Origin: Gemella sp. zg-570
GTDB lineage: Bacteria > Bacillota > Bacilli > Staphylococcales > Gemellaceae
Length of the DNA stretch: 64,000 bases
NCBI RefSeq assembly: GCF_018866345.1
Contig: NZ_CP076443.1
Span: 1 to 64,000 of the forward strand
Reading direction: 5' to 3'
In this document: one piece after another, positions 23,878 through 41,898 of the stretch
Layout: each line of letters opens with the position of its first letter
Numbering within the stretch: position 1 is the first letter of the stretch
Program-made: the position numbers and the translations under genes
The notes under the pieces: generated by a model
The model's input: only the letters and a program-made list of their open reading frames with translations
Databases searched by the model: none
Told to the model about the DNA's origin: nothing

Positions 23878-29946
<6,069 letters not shown>

Positions 29947-30672: not shown

Positions 30673-30829
30673 AATATTAAGTTAATATATCCTCTTTACT
30701 ATTTATGTAGGGAGGATTTTTTAGTTTTATAATAAGTAACTTGCTCTGTAAGGTATTTTGTAACAGTCTTTAAAAATAAGATAATAAGTAGTATAATATA
30801 ATACAAGAGATATAGAGAGAAGAAATTTC

Positions 30830-30969
30830 ATGGAAAATAAAAATTTGAATATGGTAGTCTGTGGTGGTTGAAACTCTAAGATGGGTCGGGAGTTATTTCT
30901 AATTTATTAAAAGACCTAGCGAAAAAAGCTGATAAAAATTTAAGAGTGGGCTATGAAAGTTCTGATGAT
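30830..30969 (+). pseudogene. selD: selD remnant (selenophosphate synthetase N-terminus) with UGA codon
   Basis: Only the first about 45 codons survive. From ATG 30830 the frame reads MENKNLNMVVCGG, then TGA at 30869, then NSKMG. A one-base deletion near 30886 shifts the frame, after which it reads SGVISNLLKDLAKKADKNLRVGYESSDD. This matches the SelD N-terminus (in E. coli GAGCGCKISP, later NLLVGNETRDDAA). The TGA aligns with the catalytic Cys position, so the ancestral enzyme probably carried selenocysteine there. AACTC at 30872 and GAGTT at 30890 could form a small stem just after the TGA, as expected of a bacterial SECIS, but the evidence for that is weak. The rest of selD is gone and the frame runs directly into selA sequence. 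Confidence 0.75.
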
Positions 30970-31209
30970 GTAGCAGAAGTTGGTGGAGGAAGTTATCCAG
31001 CCTCTTACCTAGAAAGTATAGCAGTAAAACTAAGTCATGAAAAAATATCATCAACTCAACTAGAAAAAGATTTGTTAGAAGTAGAAATACCAATTATTAC
31101 AAGAATAAAGGATAATACTATTATTTTTGATATGAGAACTTTAGCTAGTCGTGAATTTGATTTGGTGCTAGGAAGTTTGAAAAAAATTATAAAAAATAAG
31201 TTTGTATAA
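30970..31209 (+). pseudogene. selA: selA remnant (selenocysteine synthase C-terminus)
   Basis: The last about 80 codons of L-seryl-tRNA(Sec) selenium transferase remain: EVGGGSYPASYLESIAVKL, then VEIPIITRIKDNTIIFDMRTL. In E. coli SelA the matching parts are IGSGSLPVDRLPSAALTF and [21 protein letters not shown]. The PLP-binding core is missing. It is fused in frame to the selD stub, so one deletion removed the end of selD and most of selA. A terminator follows at 31306. The last codons and the 3' flank recur at 37973. Confidence 0.8.
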
Positions 31210-31632: not shown

Positions 31633-31644
31633 GTGGTGAGATTT

Positions 31645-33558
31645 GTGGATATTTTCAACTATGATAATAGAAGTTTGCGGATACTAAATATATTAGAAGA
31701 AAATTTTATCGTACAGGAAAAATATTTTTCGGATATATTTAGAGTTGGGCAAAAAACCATTCAAAATGAAATCAAAGATTTAAATGCTATGCTAGGAGAT
31801 GCTGCCTACATTAAATATGATAGCGGTGGCTATCTCCTCTACATTGTGAAATTTGAAAAATATGTAAATATTAAATCTAGTATTTATGATATGTATAAAA
31901 ATTTTGACTCTAGTAAAGTTCGATTGGTTTATATTTTTAAAAAATTGATGGAAAGTAAAGTATCACACACTATTGATGATTTGGCTTTTGATATGATTGT
32001 TAGCCGTAGTACACTACTCAGCGATATTAATAAATTAAAAGATATTGTCAAAGAATACAAACTCTCCATAATTGGAAAAACGAATGTTGGTATAAATGTA
32101 AAAGGAGCTGAAAAAGACATTCGGATGTTTGTTATTGAAAATATTTATAATTATATTTATAAAGAGGATATTTTCGATAAAGAGGATAATGATTATATCA
32201 ACGAACTACTCATAAAACATCATATTGATTTTCAAATAAAAAGTGAGTTTATTAAATATTTAACTGTATCACTAGACAGATTTGCCAATGGATTTTATTT
32301 ACATTTCACCAAAAACCAGTATGATGAATTATTAAATTTTTACACGTCAGAATTTTTAGAAGATATATGTAACTATATTAAAGGAAAATATCAGTTAGAA
32401 TTATCGCAAGATGAAAAGAAATTTTTAACAATTTGCTTTGCTACGATGAGATTAGCAACTAATATTGCAAGCATTAATAAAAGTTTGAAAGATAATCAAG
32501 AGTATAAACAACTTGTTGCTCATATTCTTGGAGAAATTTATTTTGAGTATGGTATTGATTTTGATATTTCAAATATGGTGGAAGAATTTATGTATCATAT
32601 TTACTTTTTAATGCAAAGACAAAAATATGGTGTTAATTATAGTAACAATATGACGGAAACTATCAAAGAAAAATATGTTATGTCCTACAAGATTGCACAA
32701 TTAGCTTCAGGCGTTATCCAAAAAGATTATGGTTATCAGATTTCGGAAGCTGAAGTTTGTTATTTGGCAGTATATTTTGAAACTTTTATTAATAAGCTGA
32801 GTATTAATTTTGATAAAATGAAAGTTTTGCTAATCACAAAAACAGGCTCAGCTTTTAGGGAACTTATGATTTTTCAGTTGGAATCAAAACTCAAAGAGCA
32901 TATTTATTTAACGGTTTCTTCTCCTTATGAAAATGTTGACTATAAAGATTATCAACTTGTAATTTCGACGGTAAAAAAAGATTTTCCTGAAGATGTACGA
33001 GTAATATTTCAGCCAGAAATTTTAGATATTGCCTATATAAAAAAAGAAATTGGTTTGATGAGGTATATTGACAAGGCAAACATGCCAATTATTAGAGGTG
33101 TGGAGTCGGTACTTATTAGCTCTATTTCAGAAGAAACATTTTTCATATGCGACCCACAAAAAACTTACCACGAGAACGTACATAATATAGTCAATAAGTT
33201 GATAGAAAAAAATATTGTTGACAAGATGTTTTTAGAACGTGTTATTGAGAGAGAAAAGCGTTCGTCTATGATTTTTACAGACCAAGTGGCTTTTCCCCAT
33301 GTAATAAATCTTAAATCTAATCTTTTTATATTGTCTTTAGGAGTTAGTGAAGATGGTTTTTCTGATAAACCAGATTTGAAACTAATTTTTCTAGCAGCCA
33401 TACCTGCTGACGATAGTTATTCTATGCTACTTGTAAAAACTTATGATGAGTTGATTTCAATGATGAAAGATGAAAAGTTTCTCACTGGAATATCAAAATT
33501 AAAAAATTACACAGATTTAGTTCATTACTTTATCAAAGAAACAAATTTATACAGATAG
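31645..33558 (+). CDS. PRD-domain transcriptional regulator of the glucitol operon (GutR/MtlR type)
   Basis: A 637-residue BglG-family activator/antiterminator-type protein. It reads as an N-terminal winged helix (FSDIFRVGQKTIQNEIKDL), a second HTH segment (SRSTLLSDINKLKDIV), two PRD domains (about 170-390), a IIB-like domain and a C-terminal IIA-like domain with the phosphorylatable His in VAFPHVINL near residue 551. Regulators of this layout turn on sugar PTS operons and are controlled by HPr and EII phosphorylation. The start chosen is GTG 31645, eight bases after AGGTGG at 31631; an earlier GTG at 31633 overlaps that ribosome site. It is the first gene of the srl operon. Confidence 0.85.
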   Translation: MDIFNYDNRSLRILNILEENFIVQEKYFSDIFRVGQKTIQNEIKDLNAMLGDAAYIKYDSGGYLLYIVKFEKYVNIKSSIYDMYKNFDSSKVRLVYIFKKLMESKVSHTIDDLAFDMIVSRSTLLSDINKLKDIVKEYKLSIIGKTNVGINVKGAEKDIRMFVIENIYNYIYKEDIFDKEDNDYINELLIKHHIDFQIKSEFIKYLTVSLDRFANGFYLHFTKNQYDELLNFYTSEFLEDICNYIKGKYQLELSQDEKKFLTICFATMRLATNIASINKSLKDNQEYKQLVAHILGEIYFEYGIDFDISNMVEEFMYHIYFLMQRQKYGVNYSNNMTETIKEKYVMSYKIAQLASGVIQKDYGYQISEAEVCYLAVYFETFINKLSINFDKMKVLLITKTGSAFRELMIFQLESKLKEHIYLTVSSPYENVDYKDYQLVISTVKKDFPEDVRVIFQPEILDIAYIKKEIGLMRYIDKANMPIIRGVESVLISSISEETFFICDPQKTYHENVHNIVNKLIEKNIVDKMFLERVIEREKRSSMIFTDQVAFPHVINLKSNLFILSLGVSEDGFSDKPDLKLIFLAAIPADDSYSMLLVKTYDELISMMKDEKFLTGISKLKNYTDLVHYFIKETNLYR

Positions 33559-33568
33559 GAGGAATATT

Positions 33569-34012
33569 ATGAACATAGTTGCTCTTGGTTTTTTGCTATT
33601 GATAGCTTTTATTTTACAGTATCTATTGACCTATATTCAGATACAAAGTTTTCACAAATACTATCGCAAAATGCGTCAAAAAGGATGTGTTGTTATAGGA
33701 AGAAAAAAAGGGGCTTTCCGTGCTGGTGCAATTGTGATGTTTGCAATAGATGACAAACAAAAAGTCATAGACGGTGCAGTGATGCAAGGAGTAACTGTTC
33801 TTGCAAGATTTCACAGATATGATGCTTTTAAGGGTATAAATGTAGCTACTATTAATGAAGGTGATTGTAAAGCTTTGGGCTTGTCTAAGTCCTTAACAAG
33901 TGCAATTTTAGACGGAGTTGTAACATTCAAAACTGTTGCAAATGGTGACGAGGTGTCAATGCCACCGAGTCCATTTATAAAAATTTATCGCAAATTAAAA
34001 TTTAATTCATAA
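33569..34012 (+). CDS. gutM: glucitol operon activator protein GutM
   Basis: A 147-residue GutM-family protein with an N-terminal membrane helix (about 3-22) and the family's conserved stretch GRKKGAFRAGAIVMFAIDD. GutM is the accessory activator of glucitol operons in enterics and Firmicutes. It follows the PRD regulator by 10 bases, the usual arrangement. Confidence 0.88.
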   Translation: MNIVALGFLLLIAFILQYLLTYIQIQSFHKYYRKMRQKGCVVIGRKKGAFRAGAIVMFAIDDKQKVIDGAVMQGVTVLARFHRYDAFKGINVATINEGDCKALGLSKSLTSAILDGVVTFKTVANGDEVSMPPSPFIKIYRKLKFNS

Positions 34013-34038
34013 AAATATATTTATTAGGAGGAGAAAAA

Positions 34039-34587
34039 ATGGATTATATTGTTCAATTGGCTTCTGGATTTACAGGCTTATTCGATGAGGGTGCAAAAAC
34101 CTTTGTTAGTTGGGTAACTGGAATTATTCCAAAAGTATTATTATTACTTGTATTTATGAATGCATTGATTGCATTTATCGGACCTAAGCGTGTTGATAAC
34201 TTTGCAAAACTGTGTTCAAAAAATGTGGTGTTGGCTTATGGAGTCTTGCCATTCTTATCAGCCTTTATGCTAGGAAATCCTATGGCACTATCTATGGGTA
34301 AATTTTTACCAGAACGTATGAAACCAAGTTATTATGCTTCTGCATCTTATCACTGTCATACAAATAGTGGTATTTTTCCACATATTAATGTCGGAGAAAT
34401 TTTTATTTACCTAGGAATAGCAAATGGAATTACACAATTAGGTCTAAACATAACACCTTTAGCAATTCACTATTTATTGGTTGGTTTAGTCATGAATTTC
34501 TTTGCAGGTTGGGTTACTGATTTTACAACAAAAATCGTAATGAAACAACAAGGAATTATGTTGAAAAATGAATTGCAGATAAAATAA
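34039..34587 (+). CDS. srlA: PTS glucitol/sorbitol transporter IIC component
   Basis: IIC2-type membrane subunit, 182 residues with about four or five helices. LGNPMALSMGKFLPERMKPSYYASASYHCHTNSG is the strongly conserved core of SrlA. It forms the sugar channel together with the IIC part of the next gene. It has AGGAGG ahead of its ATG. Confidence 0.92.
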   Translation: MDYIVQLASGFTGLFDEGAKTFVSWVTGIIPKVLLLLVFMNALIAFIGPKRVDNFAKLCSKNVVLAYGVLPFLSAFMLGNPMALSMGKFLPERMKPSYYASASYHCHTNSGIFPHINVGEIFIYLGIANGITQLGLNITPLAIHYLLVGLVMNFFAGWVTDFTTKIVMKQQGIMLKNELQIK

Positions 34588-34602
34588 TAGGAGGAACTAG
34601 AC

Positions 34603-35607
34603 ATGACTTACAATAGTATTCGTATTGAAAAAGGAAGTGGAGGTTTTGGTGGTCCTTTAACAGTTACACCAAAACCAGGGAAAGATGTACTACTTTATAT
34701 TACAGGTGGAGGAGCAGAACCTGAAATTGTTGAGAAAATAGTTTCACTTACGGGTTGCCGTGCTGTAAATGGTTTTAAAACATCTGTACCTGATGAAGAA
34801 ATATTTTTAGTTATTATTGATTGTGGTGGGACACTGCGTTGTGGTATTTATCCACAAAAACGTATTCCGACAATAAATATTATGCCTGTTGGACCTAGTG
34901 GACCGCTTGCTAAATTTATTAAAGAAGACATTTATGTTTCAGCAGTAGGTTTGAATGAAATTAAATCTGTAGATGGTCTAGCAAGTAGTGAGGAAAAAAT
35001 AGTTTATTCTTCAGAGGAAAAACGTGAATTTAAATATAGTGCTGATAAAAAAGTATCTCAAACATTGGCAGAAAATTCAAAATCATCTCTTGTTCAAAAA
35101 ATAGGTATGAATGTTGGGAAATTTGTTCATACCTTGTATCAAGCAGGACGTGATGCAGTACAAGCTATGATTACAACTATTTTGCCATTTATGGCATTTG
35201 TGGCGATGTTAATAGGTATTATTCAGGGTTCTGGTTTTGGAGATTGGTTTGCCAAATTATTAACACCATTAGCAGGTAATATTTATGGATTAGTTGCCTT
35301 AGGTTTTGTTTGTTCAATTCCAATTTTATCTGCCTTACTTGGACCAGGTGCGGTTATTGCACAAATTATCGGTACATTAATTGGGGTTGAAATTGGAAAA
35401 GGAAATATACCTCCAAGTTTAGCATTACCTGCATTGTTTGCAATTAATACACAATGTGCGTGTGATTTTATCCCAGTAGGATTAGGTTTAGCCGAAGCAG
35501 AACCAGAAACAGTAGAAGTAGGAGTTGTTTCTGTACTATATTCTAGATTTATTATAGGAGTTCCTCGTGTTATTGTTGCTTGGTTAGCAAGCTTTGGTTT
35601 GTATTAA
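34603..35607 (+). CDS. srlE: PTS glucitol/sorbitol transporter IIBC component
   Basis: A 334-residue fusion. The N-terminal IIB domain has the motif [14 protein letters not shown] and the phosphorylated Cys in [12 protein letters not shown] near residues 75-84. The C-terminal membrane part (about 180-334) has [22 protein letters not shown] and [16 protein letters not shown]. It passes phosphate from SrlB to glucitol. The gene lies 15 bases after srlA. Confidence 0.92.
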
Positions 35608-35633
35608 AAATTTAAAGTTATGGAGTGGAAAAT

Positions 35634-35987
35634 GTGTTAGTATACGAAAATACAGTTAAAGAAAAGGGAGTTTTAGTTAAAGAACTTGGCGATAGTATGT
35701 TTATTACTTTTGGAGATAATGCACCAGAAACTTTGAAAGATTATTGTTATAGTATCGCTATAAAACCTACAAAAGCAAAAATTAAAGTAGGACAACGTTT
35801 GATAATAGACGGTTCAGATTATGAAATTATTGCGGTAGGAGATATTGCTGAACATAATTTGGTGCAACTAGGACATCTAACAGTTAATTTTAGTGATGAT
35901 AGCAATGTTTTACCTGGAGCTATTGCCGTAGAAAATAAACAATGTCCAGTCTTAGAAATAGGAACAGTAATTCGAATAGAAGAGTAA
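35634..35987 (+). CDS. srlB: PTS glucitol/sorbitol transporter IIA component
   Basis: A IIA protein of 117 residues, homologous to E. coli SrlB: LVYENTVKEKG aligns with VIYQTTITRIG, and VGDIAEHNLVQLGHLTVNF with the region VGSVAEDNLRELGHVTLRF. GTG 35634 is chosen because GGAG lies eight bases upstream and the E. coli start aligns there; GTG 35625 in the same frame would add three residues (MEN) but overlaps the ribosome site. It precedes srlD by 11 bases. Confidence 0.86.
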   Translation: MLVYENTVKEKGVLVKELGDSMFITFGDNAPETLKDYCYSIAIKPTKAKIKVGQRLIIDGSDYEIIAVGDIAEHNLVQLGHLTVNFSDDSNVLPGAIAVENKQCPVLEIGTVIRIEE

Positions 35988-35998
35988 GGGGGAATATT

Positions 35999-36799
35999 AT
36001 GACAACATGGTTAAATTTAACAGGAAAAACAGCGATAGTTACAGGTGGTTATTCAGGTATAGGAGCAGCAGTTGTACAAGAATTTTTAAATCAGGGTTGT
36101 AATGTAGTAGTTAGTGATTTGCAAGAAAAACAATCAGATAATGATAAACTTATGTACCTAGCGTGTGATGTATCAAAACGTGAAGATGTAGAAAAAATGG
36201 TAACCAAAACATTAGAAAAATTTGGTAGTATTGATATCTTGGTAAACAATGCAGGAATTAATATACCGACATTACTAGTAGACAGTAAAAAAAGTTATAG
36301 TAAGTATGAATTAAATGATGCTGTTTATGATAAAGTAATGGATATTAATGTAAAAGGTGTTTATCTAGTAGCACAAACTGTTGGACGAATTTTTGTTGAA
36401 AAAGGTAGTGGTGTTATTATTAATATGTCGTCAGAATGTGGATTAGAAGGTTCAGAAGGGCAAAGTATCTATGCAGCTAGTAAGAATGCAGTTAATTCTT
36501 TTACACGCTCTTGGGCAAAAGAATTAGGAAAATACGGGGTGCGAGTTGTAGGCGTAGCACCTGGTATTTTAGAAGCAACAGGTTTACGAACATTAGCTTA
36601 TGAGCAAGCACTAGCTTACACAAGAGGAATTACGGTTGAGAAAATTCGTGAAGGCTACACAAGTAGCAAGACAACACCGCTTGCTAGAGATGGAAAACTT
36701 AGTGAAGTAGCAGACCTTGTAGCATATTTGGCTAGTGAACGTGCAAGTTATGTTCATGGAGTAACCTATAATGTTGCAGGTGGAAAAACCCGTGGCTAG
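35999..36799 (+). CDS. srlD: sorbitol-6-phosphate 2-dehydrogenase
   Basis: A short-chain dehydrogenase of 266 residues that oxidises sorbitol-6-phosphate to fructose-6-phosphate with NAD+. Cofactor motif TGGYSGIG near residue 15, NNAG near 85 and the catalytic Ser-Tyr-Lys set ending in YAASK. The start is ATG 35999 after AAGGGGGA; reading further upstream would overlap srlB. It ends the PTS part of the operon. Confidence 0.92.
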   Translation: MTTWLNLTGKTAIVTGGYSGIGAAVVQEFLNQGCNVVVSDLQEKQSDNDKLMYLACDVSKREDVEKMVTKTLEKFGSIDILVNNAGINIPTLLVDSKKSYSKYELNDAVYDKVMDINVKGVYLVAQTVGRIFVEKGSGVIINMSSECGLEGSEGQSIYAASKNAVNSFTRSWAKELGKYGVRVVGVAPGILEATGLRTLAYEQALAYTRGITVEKIREGYTSSKTTPLARDGKLSEVADLVAYLASERASYVHGVTYNVAGGKTRG

Positions 36800-38763: not shown

Positions 38764-39120
38764 TTATTTAATTTGTTTTTCCCATTCTTCTTCCTTAAAG
38801 CCTAGTAAAAAGACCTCATTATCCACATCAAAAGCAAGGGGTCTTTTTATAAGCATACCGTCGCTTAAAAGTAGGTCAATTTGCTCGTCTAAAGAAAGAT
38901 TTGGTAGTATTTCTTTTAGCTTGCCTTCTCTGTAAAGGATACCGCTAGAATTAAAAAGTTTTTTTATTGGTACACCAAAGTTTTTCAAAATATTTTTTAT
39001 ATCTTCTTTTGTTGGTGTTTGCTTTGTTACATCAATAAATTCAGCATCAATATCATTGTTTTTGATAAATTTTTTAGCCGCTCTACAAGTTGAGCATTTC
39101 GGATATTCGTAAATTTTCAT
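38764..39120 (-). CDS. ArsC/Spx-family thioredoxin-fold protein
   Basis: A 118-residue protein with the motif YPKCSTCRAAKKFI (Cys9 and Cys12). LNSSGILYREGKL-like and DGMLIKRPLAFD segments are typical of the ArsC/YffB/Spx superfamily. It lacks the arsenate-reductase operon context and is closest in feel to Firmicutes YusI-type proteins of unknown role. Spx itself is longer, with an RNA polymerase-binding C-terminus, so this is probably a reductase-like relative. Confidence 0.8.
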   Translation of the reverse strand: MKIYEYPKCSTCRAAKKFIKNNDIDAEFIDVTKQTPTKEDIKNILKNFGVPIKKLFNSSGILYREGKLKEILPNLSLDEQIDLLLSDGMLIKRPLAFDVDNEVFLLGFKEEEWEKQIK

Positions 39121-39196: not shown

Positions 39197-39685
39197 TTAT
39201 AGTAAATGATAGCTATGTAATACATAAAGAAAAGCGAAAACCACTGCTAGGGCAAAAAAGTTTACTAGGGTCTGGGTATGTTCTTTAAAAGTTAGATTTA
39301 GTATTTTAAAAAGTAGAACACCGATTATTGCACCCAGAGTATTGTCTATTAGGTCGGTAATGTCGCTATAACCAACACCAAAAATGTACTGGGCTGCTTC
39401 GTAAAAAAAGCTAAGACTAAAGGCGTAGGAAATCACAGAAAGGCCACTAGAATTATCAGAAATAATTTTTCCGTAAATACCAAAGGGAATAAATACTAAA
39501 ATATTTAAAAATACCTCTAGTTTATTCATATAGGCATAGGGAAGAAGATTGATATTTCTTGCAGAATGATTTTTAATAAAAGAAAAAACATCCAGGTCTA
39601 ATTTGAAAATAATAATCCAAGTTAAAAATACTAGGTAGAGGCAGAATAAAATATTGGATATTAAATGTGTTTTTTTTGATGGCAT
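39197..39685 (-). CDS. VanZ-family membrane protein
   Basis: A 162-residue VanZ-domain protein with four or five hydrophobic helices. Conserved elements are NLLPYAY, LNILVFIPFGIY and YSDITDLIDNTLGAIIG. VanZ relatives are associated with teicoplanin tolerance and, in some species, lipid or envelope homeostasis; the function here is not known. It is a single gene with an ATG 11 bases into the minus-strand leader. Confidence 0.85.
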   Translation of the reverse strand: MPSKKTHLISNILFCLYLVFLTWIIIFKLDLDVFSFIKNHSARNINLLPYAYMNKLEVFLNILVFIPFGIYGKIISDNSSGLSVISYAFSLSFFYEAAQYIFGVGYSDITDLIDNTLGAIIGVLLFKILNLTFKEHTQTLVNFFALAVVFAFLYVLHSYHLL

Positions 39686-40668: not shown

Positions 40669-41898
40669 ATGACATTAGAACAAAGAATAGAAAATTATGC
40701 AAAAGTTGTTGCAAAAATAGGTATTAATACACAAGTAGATCAGGAGATAGTTATTCGCTCAAGTATCGAAGCAAGAGATTTTGCCCTAAAAGTATCTGAA
40801 GAATGCTATAAGTTAGGAGCAAAAAAAGTTAGTATCGACTGGAATGACCAAAAATTAAAAAGACAAAGCCTAACTTATGCCAGCAAGGAAAGTCTAGCAG
40901 AATTTCCAGAATGGTTGGTATCTAAAAATGAAGAAGCAGTTAAAAAGGGTGCTGGCTTTATATCTATAATCAGTGATGACCCAGACGGTTTGGCAGGAGT
41001 TGATAGCGAGAAATTAAAAACGGATATGCTAGCCCGAGCAAAAGCCCTGCGTAACTATATGAAAGCTATAATGAATAATGAATGCCCTTGGTGCGTAACG
41101 GCAGCATCTTCAGTAGCTTGGGCTAAAAAATTATTCCCAGACTTAGCAGACCAAGAAGCCTATTTGAAACTATGGGACTTGATACTGACTGCTTGCCGCC
41201 TTGATGGCGACGGTATAGCAAATTGGGAAGAACATATTTCTATACTTGATGAAAAAGGAAATTTTTTAAACTCTAGCCAATTTGAAAAAATCCACATAAG
41301 AAGCGAAAACGGAACAGACCTATATGTAGGACTACCAAACAATCACATTTGGCAAAGTGCAGGAAGTATCGCAGGTAAAACAGGAGAAAGATTTGTTGCC
41401 AACATTCCAACAGAAGAAGTATTTACTCTTCCCCATAAGGATATTACTAGCGGAATAGTTTATAATACTAAACCTCTTAATTATGGCGGAGTTTTAATAG
41501 ATGATTTCTGGTTAAAATTTGAAAATGGAAAAGTTGTTGACTTTGCTGCTAAAAGGGGAGAAGAAGTTCTAAAAAATTTACTAGAAACAGATGAAGGTGC
41601 AAAAAGAATTGGAGAAATTGCCCTAGTACCCTTCCATTCACCAATTTCAAATACAAAGATTTTATTTTTAGAAACTCTGTACGATGAAAATGCATCTTGC
41701 CATATCGCCCTAGGTAAAGCATATCCTACTTGTTTAGAAAATGGAGAAAATATGTCAGAAGAAGAACTAGCTCAAGCTGGAGCTAACGACAGTTTAATTC
41801 ACGTTGACTTTATGATAGGAGATAAGACTACCAACATAGTAGGAATAACAAAAGACGGCAAAGAAGTAGCAATATTCAAAGCAGGAAACTGGGCGTAA
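40669..41898 (+). CDS. pepS: M29-family aminopeptidase (AmpS/PepS)
   Basis: A 409-residue cytoplasmic metallopeptidase that removes N-terminal residues from peptides. The length is typical. Family features include DISDP-like SDDPDGLAGVDSEKL, the Glu and His metal ligands in the second half (PTEEVFTLPHKDITSGIV and ALVPFHSPISN), and the C-terminal HVDFMIG. AAGGAG lies seven bases before the ATG. Single gene with its own promoter and terminator. Confidence 0.9.
   Translation: MTLEQRIENYAKVVAKIGINTQVDQEIVIRSSIEARDFALKVSEECYKLGAKKVSIDWNDQKLKRQSLTYASKESLAEFPEWLVSKNEEAVKKGAGFISIISDDPDGLAGVDSEKLKTDMLARAKALRNYMKAIMNNECPWCVTAASSVAWAKKLFPDLADQEAYLKLWDLILTACRLDGDGIANWEEHISILDEKGNFLNSSQFEKIHIRSENGTDLYVGLPNNHIWQSAGSIAGKTGERFVANIPTEEVFTLPHKDITSGIVYNTKPLNYGGVLIDDFWLKFENGKVVDFAAKRGEEVLKNLLETDEGAKRIGEIALVPFHSPISNTKILFLETLYDENASCHIALGKAYPTCLENGENMSEEELAQAGANDSLIHVDFMIGDKTTNIVGITKDGKEVAIFKAGNWA

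Follow-up and report, generated by a model that had tools for sequence, protein, structure and literature searches.

A selD-selA fusion pseudogene in Gemella sp. zg-570 as the probable remains of a selenocysteine operon

At positions 30830-31209 (plus strand) of the window, i.e. the whole 64,000-nucleotide stretch of Gemella sp. zg-570 DNA analysed here, codons 1-47 of selD are joined to the last ~80 codons of selA, which raises the question whether this is a gene in use, a fragment from elsewhere or the residue of a larger system. Based on the data presented below there is little doubt that the locus is a pseudogene, the last remains of an operon for selenocysteine (Sec) biosynthesis and decoding that belonged to the native lineage. 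The genome, G000, consists of one contig of 1,558,665 bases with a completeness of 99.99% and stands for one strain; profile searches covered it together with five congeners (G001-G005), one genome per species. A plasmid collection was also searched and gave no match. The parts of the locus, all on the plus strand, are as follows.

30789-30797, plus strand: -10-like promoter element TAGTATAAT of the selD operon, identical in the relic and six intact congeners (upstream alignment)
30830-30969, plus strand: 5' remnant of selD, codons 1-47 (alignment to six intact Gemella selD genes)
30869-30871, plus strand: UGA, the Sec codon of selD (same codon UGA in 6 of 6 intact congeners compared)
30883-30888, plus strand: one-base frame lesion, within the hairpin that follows the UGA of intact genes (alignments, folds)
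30967-30976, plus strand: deletion junction between selD (...DD) and selA (...AEVGGGS), a short sequence similar in both genes (comparison with congener genes)
30970-31209, plus strand: 3' remnant of selA, C-terminal ~80 codons with a shifted stop (TIGR00474, PF03841, alignment)

The ATG at 30830 starts a frame whose translation matches the SelD N-terminus and which is lost after the UGA. Up to the segment GYESSDD (ending at 30969, codon 47) the relic tracks the six intact selD genes codon by codon, the one-base lesion excepted; the preliminary description had put this single lesion near 30886, and the alignment places it at ~30883-30888. The same description took the UGA for the catalytic Cys/Sec position of selD, and in all six intact congeners this very codon is indeed UGA. 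Thus, from the Sec-containing SelD (TIGR00476) the relic has the UGA at the catalytic codon and lacks the full-length open frame, since besides the lesion everything beyond codon 47 is gone. A hairpin, itself unproven, is predicted downstream of the selD UGA in all six intact genes, whereas the relic gives no such prediction. Its folding energy compared with shuffled sequences showed nothing unusual in the five sequences tested, intact ones included, and in the pair counts over seven sequences, which are uninformative, no pair was changed on both sides.

SelA sequence starts at ~30970 in the same frame as the preceding SelD codons. The relic is matched by positions 364-454 of TIGR00474 in the genome search (4.6e-16), by the Pfam SelA model PF03841 (7.5e-12) and by the NCBIfam selA model (5.9e-16). 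These are fragment matches, with 58 bits against a cut-off of 267.9, yet far beyond chance, and the E-values rule out an accidental resemblance to selA. In the alignment the selA stop has slipped, so that the frame runs to 31209 and acquires a short new C-terminus. Both halves of the fusion, as proposed earlier, are therefore confirmed by alignment and profiles, while the slipped stop and the loss of the predicted hairpin come in addition. Compared with intact orthologues, the locus carries three disabling lesions: the deletion, the frame lesion and the shifted stop. As for the promoter element, the TAGTATAAT 9-mer occurs four times in the window with both strands counted, so it is the conserved position and not the 9-mer itself that counts.

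An intact operon of the order selD(UGA)-yedF-DUF3343-selB-cysteine desulfurase-selA, transcribed in one direction, was found in six Gemella genomes: G002, G005, G. bergeri ATCC 700627, G. haemolysans DNF01167 and DP3_5B, and G. sanguinis ATCC 700632. In G005 YedF, the Se/S carrier (DUF3343) and the cysteine desulfurase were named by profile, the latter scoring above the TIGR01977 cut-off and below that of the selenocysteine lyase SclA. In G004 (72% complete) selA is cut at a contig end and followed by other genes, and no other sel match exceeded its cut-off. The relic shares with the intact operon the gene ends, the UGA codon and the promoter element. Gone from it are the four internal genes and the greater part of both selD and selA, and what is left bears a frame lesion. 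What is missing between selD codon 47 and the AEVGGGS codons of selA amounts to ~6.4 kb relative to G005 and ~6.2 kb relative to G002. Because selD and selA carry a similar short sequence at the junction (GATGCAGCAG and GATAAAGCAG in G002), the deletion likely took place at microhomology. According to the preliminary description the pathway was lost by a deletion that fused the two genes. The fusion stands, with the correction that the lost stretch held four more genes (yedF, DUF3343, selB and the cysteine desulfurase); the deletion may have been the first event or may have followed once the trait had become useless.

If the relic is what remains of this operon, no working set should be found elsewhere in the genome. 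Profile searches of the whole single-contig genome gave no SelD, SelB or tRNA-Sec over the curated cut-offs, and the only match of the selA model genome-wide was the relic itself. The Sec-decoding trait is thus represented in G000 by fragments of selA and selD, with neither selB nor tRNA-Sec over cut-off, which answers the earlier suggestion to look for selB and selC; an intact copy elsewhere, of which the relic would be a duplicated fragment, is rejected on the same data. Among the six genomes searched SelB and tRNA-Sec exceeded their cut-offs in G002 and G005 only, while in G001 and G003 selA was unmatched and none of selB, selD and tRNA-Sec exceeded its cut-off. Weak matches of the selD, selB and tRNA-Sec models say nothing either way, because all three respond below cut-off in each of 14 control genomes and exceed it in 2, 2 and 5 of them, respectively; the selA model responds in 4 of the 14 and exceeds its cut-off in 1. 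The weak SelD-profile matches present in all six genomes were read, after comparison of loci, not as SelD but as a homologue which we take to be of the PurM type. The PurM-like protein of G002 (L008) shares ~56-57% identity with its counterparts in the other five genomes, which among themselves reach 82-94%, and is probably the product of a foreign gene. Since the two-protein species tree is unrooted and this gene looks foreign, the tree was read only for the grouping of G001 with G003. The tRNA-Sec gene of G002 (L032, L080) is flanked by a presumed DedA-like gene, for which G000 gave no match, and by a presumed TlpA/CcdA-like pair.

The surroundings of the relic include the following genes.

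31633-36799, plus strand: glucitol/sorbitol operon with PRD/EIIA regulator, GutM, EII-GUT, EIIBC-GUT, EIIA and dehydrogenase (the first four by Pfam, and gene order; EIIA and dehydrogenase presumed from the reading frames)
38764-39120, minus strand: ArsC-family gene, right-hand synteny anchor of the sel operon (Pfam; near selA in G002 and G005)
39197-39685, minus strand: gene that we take to be VanZ-like, second anchor (tblastn to L013, L056, L057)
40669-41898, plus strand: presumably aminopeptidase-like gene, third anchor (tblastn to L013, L054, L055, L056, L057)

In the window the relic is followed by the sorbitol operon, a transaldolase-family gene and two small genes, and then by arsC, vanZ and the aminopeptidase gene. 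In G005 selA is followed on its 3' side by a methyltransferase, one further gene, the ArsC-family gene, the VanZ-like gene and the start of the aminopeptidase-like gene. The operon contig of G002 stops within arsC, with one small ORF between selA and arsC, and the remaining part of arsC, vanZ and the aminopeptidase gene lie on a second contig that also ends inside arsC. The sorbitol operon, situated in G000 between the relic and the arsC side, is absent from that place in both these genomes. Thus, intact selD-selA operons, which the preliminary description had advised to look for in sister strains, exist in congeners, and the position of the relic, judged from gene order, is common to two of the six, those of G002 and G005, which have the same right-hand neighbours. 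G001 and G003 have the arsC and aminopeptidase pair without sel genes, and none of the arsC-side neighbours was matched in the available stretches around the operons of G. haemolysans, G. sanguinis and G. bergeri. On the other side of the relic, positions 23878-29076 (minus strand) encode a YSIRK/LPXTG surface sialidase of 1732 residues, whose N-terminal part includes a long low-complexity stretch.

To find the proteins in which Sec was used, searches were made with three selenoprotein-linked families, PF00578, PF07355 and PF09338, and a 25-bit match of the last one led to a broken D-proline reductase (prd) operon outside the window.

G000:C1 1521131-1524155 (L097 9132-12156), minus strand: broken prd operon

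Its prdC has four in-frame premature stops and a further frame lesion near the end, and keeps the Sec UGA together with the hairpin sequence after it. From PrdA only residues 347-574 are left, with a frame break at 449/450, and from PrdF residues 153-339, with a further frame break; prdA reads in frame into prdF across 230 residues with one stop. At the fusion junction the PrdA and PrdF matches overlap by five residues, and a short similarity may have served the deletion there too. The prdD and prdE matches land on the PrdA piece, the gene after it contains an internal gap, and prdB was not found genome-wide by PF07355, the model that finds prdB in G002. There is, consequently, no intact prdA, prdB or prdC in G000. 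This decaying prdC supplies the other UGA-containing selenoprotein gene that had been proposed as a check, and with the intact operons of congeners it supports the earlier suggestion that the lineage once made selenoproteins. Since neither SelB nor tRNA-Sec is left in G000, the Sec UGA of selD and that of prdC now act as ordinary stop codons.

Among the relatives, PrdC was found in G002, G004 and G005 (partial in the latter two, apparently because of contig ends), G. bergeri, G. haemolysans DP3_5B and G. sanguinis, and was not found in G001, G003 and G. haemolysans DNF01167, although the sel operon of DNF01167 is intact. G. bergeri has two PrdC-like genes (L102, L106), 75% and 48% identical to PrdC of G002. 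In G002 two operons look complete.

L075 10093-15932 and L077 5379-12924 of G002: glycine reductase (grd) operon (UGA in grdA, grdB) and D-proline reductase operon (UGA in prdB, prdC)

SelD as the sole selenoprotein, reported for Helicobacter mustelae in the part of the account available (PMC4607533), is rejected for G002 by these four UGA-containing genes. Stickland-type reductases occur in Gemella, a genus of facultative cocci. In G005, too, grdA and grdB of a glycine reductase operon contain UGA. GrdB and full GrdE were found in G002 and G005, and no credible glycine reductase match in G000. The genes that flank grd in G002 (serS; hit-pnp) are ~0.99 Mb apart in G000, and near either of them there was no grd protein match at E 1e-3 and none convincing at E 10. 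In the DNA search nine of the eleven matches were short (<200 bases). One match of 69 bases to grdC near serS (77%, E 6.4e-4) was rejected as a grd relic: it falls in the open frame of an unrelated-looking, presumably RapZ-like, protein and has no protein-level support. Peroxiredoxin-type selenoproteins were looked for with PF00578; its 8 matches across the six genomes contained no internal stop.

The degree of decay was estimated by residues invariant among the intact genes. The SelD half departs from the six congeners at 8 of the 35 residues on which all of them agree, the junction codon being among the 8; each intact selD left out in turn shows 0-1 changes (1/211 pooled; p = 6e-7 against the relic). 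Without the junction codon the figures are 7/34 versus 1/205 pooled (p = 5e-6). The SelA half has only 1 change in 39 such residues, with 0-2 in intact genes, so relaxed constraint is registered in the first half and not in the second. Having one change in 39 and being open for 87 codons, the SelA half alone does not prove decay. The PrdC relic, its stops not counted, differs at 31 of 211 invariant residues, against 0-6 of 211-217 for an intact gene left out; five intact genes were used, the partial gene of G005 being excluded. The SelA half differs from the SelD half with Fisher p = 0.011 (0.022 without the junction codon) and from PrdC with p = 0.037, which on these residue counts appears to be a modest difference, and we have no explanation for it. 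Both sel halves pooled are not distinguished from PrdC (9/74 versus 31/211, p = 0.70; 8/73, p = 0.55 without the junction codon), and this equality fits one common onset. A simple neutral simulation in which mutation is AT-biased arrives at the amount of change seen in PrdC after ~0.07 substitutions per site and predicts 3.2 stops by then; 4 are observed. Synonymous distances between relics and congeners are 0.9 to 1.6 where computable. Decay thus seems to occupy only a recent part of the lineage's separate history, the figure being rough because synonymous distances between species are near saturation and partly not computable.

The weak decay of the SelA half permits other readings of the locus. 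One may suppose that the SelA-derived frame of 87 codons (30946-31209) still yields a small protein that has a new function and is kept by selection, the locus being a remodelled gene. This frame is open, without stops, only one of its 39 invariant residues is altered, and the probability of at most one change is 0.016 at the PrdC decay rate and 0.041 at the pooled sel rate; the promoter element upstream of the relic is also retained. However, the start codon of the frame is a GTG within the fusion, without an evident ribosome-binding site by inspection; the frame covers only positions 380-454 out of the 455 of the SelA profile and has lost the proper stop. Its openness is uninformative, because simulated neutral drift predicts only ~0.7 stops in 87 codons. 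Taken together, this makes a surviving small protein very improbable. A stepwise loss, in which selD decayed first, selA stayed longer under selection and a late deletion joined them, accounts for the same asymmetry (8/35 versus 1/39, or 7/34 when the junction codon is left out), but the sites are few, the test was picked after seeing the data, and the pooled sel halves have decayed as much as PrdC; we regard such an order as rather unlikely. A more elaborate sequence, with the clients and SelD going first, SelA constrained for longer, perhaps by a Sec-independent role, and one late deletion then taking the middle of the operon, is unlikelier still.

The origin of the locus may also be questioned. 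The left neighbours of the relic are unlike those of G002 and G005, and the sorbitol operon lies on its right, as might be seen if a sel fragment had been duplicated or horizontally acquired and were not what is left of a native operon. Against this, the arsC-vanZ-aminopeptidase side is common to G005 and, across the contig break, to G002, G000 has no intact sel copy elsewhere, and the divergence of the relic from congeners is about the same size as that of congeners from each other. An arrival from outside or by duplication is, therefore, hardly credible, and the locus is best treated as the pseudogene of a native operon.

For this native operon the following history can be proposed. The ancestor, like the present G. 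bergeri, G. sanguinis and G. haemolysans, would have had SelD (itself a selenoprotein), SelA and SelB, with tRNA-Sec encoded elsewhere, and would have used Sec at least in the D-proline reductase set; glycine reductase is additionally found in two relatives, G002 and G005. The lineage may then have given up amino-acid (Stickland) reduction of proline and glycine, and with both no longer used, Sec decoding would have lost its purpose. The sel and prd operons would each have lost inner stretches, giving the in-frame fusions selD::selA and prdA::prdF, while the remainder drifted. From the sequences compared we infer that client loss removed selection for the machinery, as we infer the microhomology mechanism and the order of events. 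A turn to sugars would agree with the sorbitol operon and the large sialidase gene, but this is speculation. Machinery and clients are both lost in G000.

Partial losses of the Sec trait are already known. In Yersinia pestis CO92/Mediaevalis, according to the available part of the report, selB is frameshifted and a UGA is left in the client formate dehydrogenase (PMC1273633). As in G000, the loss there is recent, the machinery is disabled and a client UGA is left over; as far as that account goes, Y. pestis keeps selA, selC and selD, whereas the operon of G000 is reduced to 380 bases beside a decaying client operon. The orphan SelA of Helicobacter pylori/acinonychis lacks ~50 N-terminal residues and is otherwise conserved, with no disabling mutations described in the portion available (PMC4607533). 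It resembles the relic as selA-derived sequence in species without other sel genes and, on the same portion, differs in being nearly whole, while G000 keeps only the C-terminal ~80 SelA codons. Judged by these partly available sources, G000 is a new case of a known kind. No title on selenium use or Stickland reductases in Gemella was found in the literature searched, which covers few subscription journals, and Gemella is nowhere named in the main texts of the selenium literature checked, supplementary tables lying outside that scope.

So far as the available parts of these sources show, loss of Sec has mostly been inferred from presence and absence of genes, and the bacterial intermediates are few (selB of Y. 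pestis, SelA of H. pylori). G000 preserves, in one genome, relics of the machinery as well as of a client operon, the UGAs being in place and intact congener orthologues available for comparison, so that when and in what order the loss took place can be measured in a genus amenable to culture. The comparison also reveals selenoprotein genes of Stickland-type proline and glycine reductases in Gemella. G000 shows the 21st amino acid in the course of being lost, its machinery and its users decaying side by side.
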